A stretch of DNA of 64,000 nucleotides from Nitrospira sp. (GTDB lineage Bacteria > Nitrospirota > Nitrospiria > Nitrospirales > Nitrospiraceae). The stretch's first letter is position 1; each line of letters begins with the position of its first letter. The stretch covers positions 558,001-622,000 of the forward strand of contig JACOEK010000004.1 in NCBI GenBank assembly GCA_024998595.1, written 5' to 3'. The translations under genes and the position numbers were made by a program. The notes beneath the pieces are model-generated. The model saw nothing but the letters and a program-made list of their open reading frames with translations, made no database searches and was not told the DNA's origin. This document shows, one piece after another, positions 60,866 to 64,000 of this stretch.

Positions 60866-61642
60866 CTACTGGATGGCTTTTCCTAACCTTTCCCATCGTA
60901 CCCATTCCGTCCACGATCCTTGGCCGCTCCACGACCAGTAAATGCGAAATGCTTTGCCGCGCACTTTCTCCGTGCGCACATACCCCCAGAACCGGCTGTC
61001 GAGACTGTGATCCCGGTTGTCCCCCATCACGAAGTACGCATCTTCCGGCACCGTCACCGGGCCGAAATTGTCTCGCGGGCTGATGTGCCCGTCATGGACG
61101 GGCGGATCGGTGTGCTGTGTAAAGGCATGGTCATCGAACGGCGTCCCGTTGATGTGCACGACCTTGTTGCGGACTTGAATGGTGTCGCCTGGCAGCCCGA
61201 TCACGCGCTTGATAAAGTCCTTGTCTTCATCCTCGGGGAATCGAAACACGATGATGTCGCCACGCTGGATCGATCCGAACGGAATCAGTGTTCGCGAGGA
61301 ATAGCAGGTGACCGGGGGAAAGCCCGGTTGAAACTTGCAGTCCGTCGGCCACTGGAGCCCGTAGGATAACTTGCTGACCAGAATATGATCCCCGACGAGA
61401 AGGGTGGGAATCATCGAACCCGAGGGAATTTTGAAGGCCTGGACTACGAAGACCCGTATCGCGAACGCGAGCAACATCGCAATGATGATGGCTTCCGCAT
61501 ACTCACGCAGGATCGACTTGTGGGTCGGTTGGTCCGCCACGACGAGGCGTGGTTCGTTGGTCGTCGGTTCGGTGGGCGCGGGCGTCGTCGGTCCGTTCGT
61601 CGCGGGGACCTCGTCGGGACGGGCATTGGGATCCACGCTCAT
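60866..61642 (-). CDS. lepB: Signal peptidase I
   Basis: 258 residues from ATG 61642, which overlaps the lepA stop as ATGA. A Pro/Thr-rich cytoplasmic leader of about 40 residues precedes one span ([19 protein letters not shown]). Catalytic Ser76 lies in IPSGSMIPT and Lys145 in [25 protein letters not shown] follows. It cuts signal peptides at the outer face of the inner membrane. lepA-lepB pairing is common. Confidence 0.94.
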
Positions 61643-63450
61643 TCCTCGCCCACCTTGAGGATGGCCAGGAAGGCTTCCTGCGGCACTTCCACGCGACCGA
61701 CCGCTTTCATGCGCTTCTTGCCCTCTTTCTGCTTGTCCCAGAGTTTGCGTTTGCGCGAGATGTCGCCGCCGTAGCACTTGGCCGTGACATTCTTCTTGAT
61801 GGCGCCGATGGTTTCGCGGGCGATGATTTTGTTGCCGATGGCCGCCTGGATGGCGATCTCGAACATTTGTTTGGGAATGAGCTCTTTCATTTTTTCGGCG
61901 ACCTGGCGCCCGCGCTGATAGGCCCGTTCCTTATGCGTGATAAACGACAGCGCATCGACGGGCTCGCCGTTGAGCAGAATGTCCAGTCGCACCAGTTCGG
62001 ACTCGCGGTAGCCCAGGAGTTCGTAATCGAGCGACGCATAGCCCTGGGTCTTGGATTTGAGTTTGTCGTAAAAATCGAGAATGACTTCGTTGAGTGGCAA
62101 TTCGTACGCGATGACCACGCGGGTCGGATCCAGATAATGGATGCTCCGTTGAATGCCGCGACGTTCCTGGCACAATTGCAGCAACGTCCCGAGGTAGCGT
62201 TCCGGTGCGATGAGCGTAGCCAGAATGAACGGTTCTTCGAACGAGGCGATGGAACTCGGTTCAGGCAATTCCGCGGGGTTATTCAGTTCAAGCACATCCC
62301 CGCCGGTGGTGAGGATCCGGTAGATGACGGTCGGCGCAGTAGTGATGAGCGTCAGCCCGTATTCCCGCTCCAGTCGCTCCTGAATGATTTCCATATGGAG
62401 CAGGCCGAGGAACCCGCAACGGAATCCGAATCCGAGCGCCAGAGAGGTTTCCGGCTCGTAGATGAAGGACGAGTCATTCAGCCGTAGCTTTAACAGTGCA
62501 TCGCGCAGATCTTCGTAGCGGGCAGTGTCCGTCGAATAGAGTCCGCAAAAGACGAGTGGTTTGACTTCCTTGTAACCGGGGAAGGGCTGATCGGTCGGAC
62601 GCACGGCGTCGGTTAAGGTGTCGCCGATTTTCACGTCGGCCACTTCCTTCATGTTGGCGCAGAGATACCCGACCTCTCCGGTGAGAAGTTGCGTGCCCTT
62701 CGTCCGCTTCGGCGTAAATTGCCCGACTTCCGTCACTTCGAACAACCGGTCATTCGACATAACCTTGATTTTCATGCCCGGGCGAACGGATCCGTCGATG
62801 ATGCGGGTCAGCACGATCACGCCCTGGTAATTGTCGAACCACGAATCGAAAATCAGGGCCTTGAGCGGGCGAGTCGGATCGCCGGATGGTGGCGGAATTC
62901 GTTTGACGATGGCCTCGAGCACTTCCGGAACGCCGAGTCCTTCTTTCGCGCTCACGAGCATGGCATCGGTGGCATCCAACGTCAGCACATCCGAGATCTG
63001 CTGCTTGGTGCCTTCGACGTCGGCGCTGGCGAGGTCGATTTTATTGATGACCGGGATGATGGTGTGATGGTTGCCCATGGCCAAGTTCACGTTGGCGATG
63101 GTCTGGGCCTGGACGCCTTGTGTCGCATCGACGAGCAAGAGCGATCCTTCGCATGCCGCAAGACTGCGTGAGACTTCGTACGTGAAGTCGACGTGACCAG
63201 GCGTATCGATCAAATGCAGTAAATAAGTCTTCCCGTCCTGCGCCTTGTAGCGGATGGCGACGGCGTGAGCTTTGATCGTGATGCCGCGCTCACGCTCCAG
63301 GTCCATCGCATCAAGGATCTGCTCCTTGGCCTCCCGCGCAGTGACTGCGCCAGTGGCGTCGAGGAGCCGGTCGGCGAGGGTCGATTTACCGTGATCGATA
63401 TGGGCGATGATCGAGAAATTTCGGATGAGACTTTGCAAATCCTGGCTCAT
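61639..63450 (-). CDS. lepA: Elongation factor 4 (back-translocating GTPase LepA)
   Basis: 603 residues from ATG 63450 (GGGGAAC upstream), the usual length; the frame is open to 63567 but the promoter at 63469-63497 would exclude a longer form. G1 [16 protein letters not shown]3 [13 protein letters not shown]4 NKIDL, and the LepA-specific C-terminal region ([22 protein letters not shown]) are intact. It is the first gene of the long envelope run and overlaps lepB by 4 nt. Confidence 0.96.
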
Positions 63451-63468
63451 GTTCCCCAAAATCGGTTC

Positions 63469-63497
63469 ATTATAGTGACCGCCTCCAACGTTGTCAA
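63469..63497 (-). promoter_or_regulatory. lepA promoter, perfect TTGACA-N17-TATAAT
   Basis: Minus strand: TTGACA at 63497-63492, 17-nt spacer, TATAAT at 63474-63469. Predicted start near 63462, giving a leader of about 12 nt before ATG 63450. The -35 shares five base pairs with the opposing bioA -35. Confidence 0.85.
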
Positions 63498-63519
63498 AGA
63501 AATCGCCCGCCGGTATAAT
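63491..63519 (+). promoter_or_regulatory. bioA promoter, TTGTCA-N17-TATAAT
   Basis: TTGTCA (63491-63496), 17-nt spacer, TATAAT (63514-63519), about 67 nt of leader before ATG 63593. It overlaps the lepA promoter on the other strand at the -35. Confidence 0.8.
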
Positions 63520-63592
63520 CCGCGTGCGACGCGGCGTTTCATGCATCCCAGAGGTCTTACCGCGCAACCACAGCGTTACCCCGCATCATCAG

Positions 63593-64000
63593 ATGACACG
63601 TCTATCCAAACGCCCGCCGCTCGCCGCCTGGGATCATGCCTATCTCTGGCATCCGTTCACCCAGATGCAGGAATGGGAACAAGATACACCTCTGATTATC
63701 GAAAAAGGCAAAGGCTCCTACCTGATCGACACGGAGGGGCGGAGATATCTCGACGGGACGTCTTCCATTTGGGTCAATCTCCACGGGCATCGGCATCCGC
63801 AACTGGATCACGCGCTGACGGCGCAGCTCAGGCAGATCGCGCATTCGACGTTTCTCGGACTGTCTAATCCTCCGGCAATTCGTCTGGCGAAAGAGCTGAT
63901 CCGGATTGCGCCGAAGGGGCTGCGGCGGGTGTTCTACTCCGATAACGGTTCGACTGCGGTGGAAGTAGCGCTCAAGATGGCGGTGCAGTACTGGCAACAA
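63593..64000 (+). CDS. bioA: Adenosylmethionine-8-amino-7-oxononanoate aminotransferase (3' end cut by window)
   Basis: 136 residues visible, open to the last base. [13 protein letters not shown] is the BioA opening; [23 protein letters not shown] and [17 protein letters not shown] follow the class-III aminotransferase pattern. The PLP lysine lies outside. It makes 7,8-diaminopelargonate for biotin, using S-adenosylmethionine or lysine as amino donor. There is no strong ribosome site. It diverges from lepA. Confidence 0.92.

Follow-up and report, generated by a model that had tools for sequence, protein, structure and literature searches.

Predicted back-to-back lepA and bioA promoters share a single -35 element across the order Nitrospirales

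Introduction

In E. coli, bioA and bioBFCD are transcribed from a divergent, overlapping operator-promoter; both units consist of biotin genes and are controlled by BirA. The gap between lepA and bioA in Nitrospira resembles this system in that the divergent promoter of a biotin gene overlaps that of its partner.

The bidirectional promoters of E. coli and Salmonella described by Warman, Grainger and colleagues often drive mRNAs. They share a -10 element, and their divergent starts lie about 10, 18 or 23 bp apart, within a window of 7–25 bp (PMC12825309, PMC10268837). Steric constraints stop opposing polymerases from binding together at overlapping promoters (PMC12825309; PMC4207663). Five natural E. 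coli bidirectional promoters proved too weak for competition, which arises there only with strong initiation, through an improved -35 or an added activator (PMC12825309). The lepA/bioA gap is similar to this class in having a symmetric element that would be read either way, one orientation excluding the other. With the Pc and Pr promoters of the Bacillus subtilis plasmid pLS20 it would have in common coincident divergent promoters of unequal strength and room for one polymerase (PMC4207663).

Here we describe the lepA/bioA gap in a 64,000-nucleotide stretch of a Nitrospira sp. genome (the window) and in its relatives. We consider it likely that the gap contains two back-to-back sigma-70-class promoters built on one -35 element, an arrangement that would be retained through selection on each promoter together with lock-in.

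Results

Two near-consensus promoters on one heptamer

Read directly from the sequence, positions 63469–63519 are ATTATA-N16-TTGTCAA-N16-TATAAT (Table 1). The minus strand carries TTGACA-N17-TATAAT, a 12/12 match to the consensus that faces lepA, and the plus strand carries TTGTCA-N17-TATAAT, an 11/12 match that faces bioA. The two -35 hexamers overlap by 5 bp within the 7-bp imperfect palindrome TTGTCAA. On re-reading, the coordinates, hexamers, N17 spacers and -35 overlap of the original prediction were all exact. Both promoters fall into the sigma-70 class, with near-consensus hexamers, spacing within 16–18 and order-wide conservation. The predicted lepA +1 lies about 24 nt ahead of a TTG start codon at 63438. 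Spacing alone places the predicted bioA +1 near 63526, and the two predicted starts are about 64 bp apart. A literature search for a Nitrospira transcription start-site map found none in the papers covered.

Table 1 Features of the lepA/bioA gap and its flanking genes in the window.
Feature	Position	Strand	Basis
lepA (translation elongation factor 4)	61639-63438	minus	TIGR01393; probable TTG start
Predicted lepA leader	63439-63462	minus	+1 near 63462, inferred from -10 spacing
lepA -10 TATAAT (plus-strand letters ATTATA)	63469-63474	minus	spacer 17
Shared -35, TTGTCAA heptamer	63491-63497	both strands	sequence and order-wide presence
lepA -35 TTGACA	63497-63492	minus	consensus hexamer
bioA -35 TTGTCA	63491-63496	plus	one base off consensus
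bioA -10 TATAAT	63514-63519	plus	spacer 17
G+C-rich discriminator	63520-63525	plus	between bioA -10 and predicted +1
bioA (adenosylmethionine-8-amino-7-oxononanoate transaminase)	63593-64000, runs beyond window end	plus	TIGR00508

Profile matches to TIGR01393 and TIGR00508 uphold the identities first given to lepA and bioA. The bioA gene is truncated by the end of the window and is full length in locus L074. LepA probably starts at the TTG at 63438 rather than at the ATG at 63450; an in-frame stop lies upstream of the equivalent TTG in 67/143 relatives, and in most of these the TTG is the sole usable start. The promoter assignments are unaffected by this correction. One genome (G015, L024) has one additional base between the ATG and the TTG of lepA. 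In the loci inspected the right-hand neighbour is bioA, while the next gene past bioA varies between genera; beyond the order, lepA stands next to different genes.

The shared geometry is not explained by chance

Perfect TTGACA-N16-18-TATAAT sites occur six times in the 4.23-Mb genome and are absent from a reversed control. The other perfect sites inspected include one near a tRNA-Leu gene and one just upstream of a gene that by eye resembles gpsA. This rarity, together with the gene-adjacent positions of these two sites, argues that the perfect consensus is probably a real promoter here.

The complete pattern, ATTATA-N16-TTGWCAA-N16-TATAAT with up to three mismatches, has one match in the genome, with zero mismatches; since the reversed control also gives one match at this tolerance, weight is placed only on the zero-mismatch result. 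The exact shared -35 pattern is found in 126 of the 235 genomes of the order, once per genome and never twice, and its reversed control in none of the 235; here, as in all our counts of loci and genomes, the genomes of one order are non-independent samples. Two separate perfect -35 boxes 0–30 bp apart were found in 0/235 genomes of the order. Chance does not account for the shared -35 geometry.

Both promoters are conserved across the order

We read the gap upstream of lepA at 145 loci representing four families; 144 of these loci are evaluable, as one contig ends inside the gap. LepA identity to the protein of the window goes down to 65% among the compared loci. TTGTCAA is present in 143/144 evaluable gaps, and 137/144 combine the shared -35 with recognisable -10 elements on both sides, small variants allowed. 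The lepA -10 is ATTATA in 132/143 loci and a single-base variant in the remaining 11, at a spacer of 17 (135 loci) or 18 (8 loci). For bioA, the -10 is TATAAT in 127/143 loci and TATACT in 12/143, with a spacer of 17 in 117 loci and 18 in 22. Neither -10 is poorly conserved: both are kept across the order, and spacers of 17–18 are retained on both sides in the relatives. The spacer sequences are far more variable than the boxes, in an alignment whose box columns served to select the sequences and in which only the other columns are unbiased. These patterns support the view that both predicted promoters are real.

The centre base of the heptamer gives TTGACA to lepA and TTGTCA to bioA in every shared locus and is never flipped.

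Two other sources of conservation in the gap were considered and rejected. A minus-strand reading frame is open in much of genus g1 but contains stops in many relatives, which argues against a coding explanation. The bioA spacer is nearly fixed in genus g1, yet it varies in the family, against a role as an operator.

Split, interrupted and duplicated loci

The genomes G033 and G032 (L067, L068) carry two copies of TTGTCAA, 11 bp apart, each with a -10 of its own: 17 nt separate the first copy from that of lepA, and 17 nt the second from that of bioA. The retention of both promoters after the -35 had split is strong evidence, within the reach of sequence comparison, for the use of both and against sharing as such being obligatory.

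The bioA half is interrupted by apparent inserted DNA in four loci (G041, L053; G109, L113; G080, L123; G112, L126), and in a fifth (G191, L095) the bioA -10 is gone. Disruptions thus number five on the bioA side and none on the lepA side.

A recurring repeat (GAGCGTATAGC.AATGGCGTATGG...) is apparently inserted at or just past the bioA promoter in L113 and L123, and also in L042 and L262. In L091 (G184), a stretch of about 60 bp upstream of lepA is duplicated in tandem; it contains the bioA -10 and start region, so that bioA has a second, unshared promoter-like copy.

Outgroups and the likely history of the gap

Several outgroups in which bioA does not adjoin lepA still have a strong lepA promoter. 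At the base needed only by bioA (63491), 4/7 outgroups with a strong lepA promoter and no bioA carry an A. It is likely that bioA came to adjoin a pre-existing strong lepA promoter and took over its -35.

The outgroups also bear on a different reading, that the lepA promoter alone is used, the right half serving lepA as an A+T-rich UP-like element or as the site of a regulator, with bioA transcribed from elsewhere. The persistence of a strong lepA promoter in outgroups without bioA would fit, as would the bioA -10, which sits at the position of a distal UP subsite. However, the right half is no loose A+T tract: it is an exact TATAAT or TATACT at a spacer of 17–18, it is not kept in the outgroup promoters, and the split locus has its second -35 17 nt from the bioA -10. 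We regard this reading as extremely improbable.

The bioA discriminator

The discriminator of bioA has a mean G+C content of 0.86 (139 loci), compared with 0.56 in the leader that follows and 0.65 at lepA. In E. coli, G+C-rich discriminators accompany unstable open complexes and growth-rate control. By analogy, the bioA discriminator would be a second asymmetry between the two promoters.

The CCGCG discriminator at 63520–63525 has a counterpart elsewhere in the genome, where TATAATCCGCG likewise comes directly behind a perfect promoter (L005, gpsA-like gene, seen by eye). The bioA and gpsA-like promoters possibly form a growth-rate-controlled set. The perfect inverted repeat CCGCGTGCGACGCGG (CCGCGT-GCG-ACGCGG, 63520–63534), directly after the bioA -10, was judged incidental, as its arms are kept in several congeners and broken in others.

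Predicted occupancy by one polymerase at a time

Sigma region 4 contacts the -35 element as double-stranded DNA. Given this known structure, the near-palindrome TTGTCAA should be readable from either side, and the gap would hold one RNA polymerase holoenzyme at once, facing either lepA or bioA. Whichever way it faces, a bound holoenzyme is expected to cover the shared -35 together with the greater part of the spacer on the other side, which would make simultaneous occupancy impossible. The lepA orientation would be favoured by its consensus -35. Interference would presumably matter only with frequent initiation; as both directions are near consensus, competition in which lepA is favoured is plausible. 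At consensus promoters the limiting step can be escape instead of binding, in which case competition could depart from this guess in either direction.

Retention of the geometry can be accounted for simply. Each promoter, taken alone, must retain its own -35, -10 and spacer, and this would keep the shared arrangement in place. Lock-in would act in addition: a small indel or a rearrangement that separates the genes would cost one of them its -35.

The mutual exclusion of polymerases that was originally proposed is sterically expected from known polymerase footprints and from work on overlapping promoters (PMC12825309, PMC4207663), with lepA favoured. It is not indispensable, since the -35s are split in one lineage and the bioA half is lost or moved at five loci.

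The distance between the predicted starts also bears on a co-expression model, in which initiation in the two directions reduces the superhelical density of the DNA between the genes, to the benefit of both promoters, while the shared -35 does no more than keep the gap compact. Close divergent promoters are known to couple through supercoiling (PMC4469952), and lepA and bioA are both housekeeping genes. With about 64 bp between the predicted starts, however, the two complexes would not be able to form together and any coupling would have to be sequential. We consider the model very unlikely.

The proposed biotin–envelope balance is not supported

The original prediction went on to suggest that exclusion balances biotin synthesis against envelope building without any regulator. 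The N-terminal repressor domain of BirA (TIGR00122) was found in 0/29 genomes of the genus, while 9/14 control genomes were positive. A BirA operator in the gap was rejected, as no BirA repressor domain occurs among these 29 genomes. The absence of the canonical biotin regulator is plausible on this basis, and other regulators could still act on the gap.

The balance itself is unsupported. If competition at the shared -35 were itself selected as a regulator-free switch between biotin synthesis and lepA with the envelope genes behind it, sharing should be retained, and it is retained order-wide. The genus also lacks a BirA-type repressor domain in its 29 genomes, and near-consensus elements on both sides are the condition under which competition arises in E. 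coli (PMC12825309). Yet the same retention is expected if selection acts on each promoter separately, the -35s have come apart in G032 and G033, the bioA half is lost or moved at five loci, and the -35 always has the polarity that favours lepA, which argues for dominance rather than balance. We find such a switch improbable. Selection on each promoter would explain the retention, so that a dedicated biotin–envelope switch does not appear to be needed, and the balance is a guess.

Shared -35 geometry in other lineages

A scan of 84,980 species genomes for the shared -35 geometry found at least 118 stretches. With three recurring gene pairs left out, 36/77 placeable sites among the matches listed lie in divergent gaps, compared with about 3% of random positions, and 0/77 placeable sites among the matches listed lie in convergent gaps.

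Two of the three recurring pairs involve yceD. In Bacillaceae, the divergent gap between yceD and tmcAL (ylbN/ylbM) has the identical ATTATA-N16-TTGTCAA-N16-TATAAT geometry with the almost fixed spacer TATTTTTTCTTTACAC (L191, L207, L210, L218, L226, L236, L249, L253, L257, L277, L279, L299). The divergent gap between yceD and a gene for an RluA-like pseudouridine synthase has the same shared -35 geometry in clostridial Oscillospiraceae/Ruminococcaceae (L205, L216, L229, L235, L291, L294, L302). In both pairs the perfect -35 faces yceD. As the gene pairs are unrelated and belong to another phylum, the yceD cases appear to have originated independently.

Discussion

Our literature search for a described class of shared -35 promoters found nothing, which is weak evidence, as subscription papers were thinly covered. 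The arrangement would represent a new form of overlapping divergent promoter, deeply conserved, with a mechanism that would be ordinary in principle. A broader proposal, that TTGWCAA shared -35 promoters form a general undescribed class in which competition biased by the centre base sets the ratio of two housekeeping genes without a regulator and ties them together for as long as an order lasts, is speculative and we consider it rather unlikely.

The conserved gap suggests that gene order can become frozen where promoters overlap. Loci in which the -35 is shared, split or has lost its bioA half constitute a natural series for asking whether competition matters at housekeeping promoters.

Differences from the known systems can be observed in each case. 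In E. coli, the partner of bioA is another set of biotin genes; here that place is taken by lepA, and a search of 29 genomes of the genus found no BirA repressor domain. In Pc/Pr of pLS20, the positions of the -10 and -35 elements are swapped between the strands and RcoLS20 runs the switch (PMC4207663), whereas lepA/bioA has no known regulator. The tested E. coli bidirectional promoters have low basal strength, unlike the lepA/bioA elements with their 12/12 and 11/12 matches. The lepA/bioA gap also falls outside the definition of Warman, Grainger and colleagues, which requires a shared -10 and starts 7–25 bp apart: it is the -35 that is shared, the -10 elements are separate, and the predicted starts are about 64 bp apart. 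While bidirectional bacterial promoters are now defined by a shared -10, lepA/bioA points to a second, shared -35 type, in which one base would decide which gene receives the consensus.
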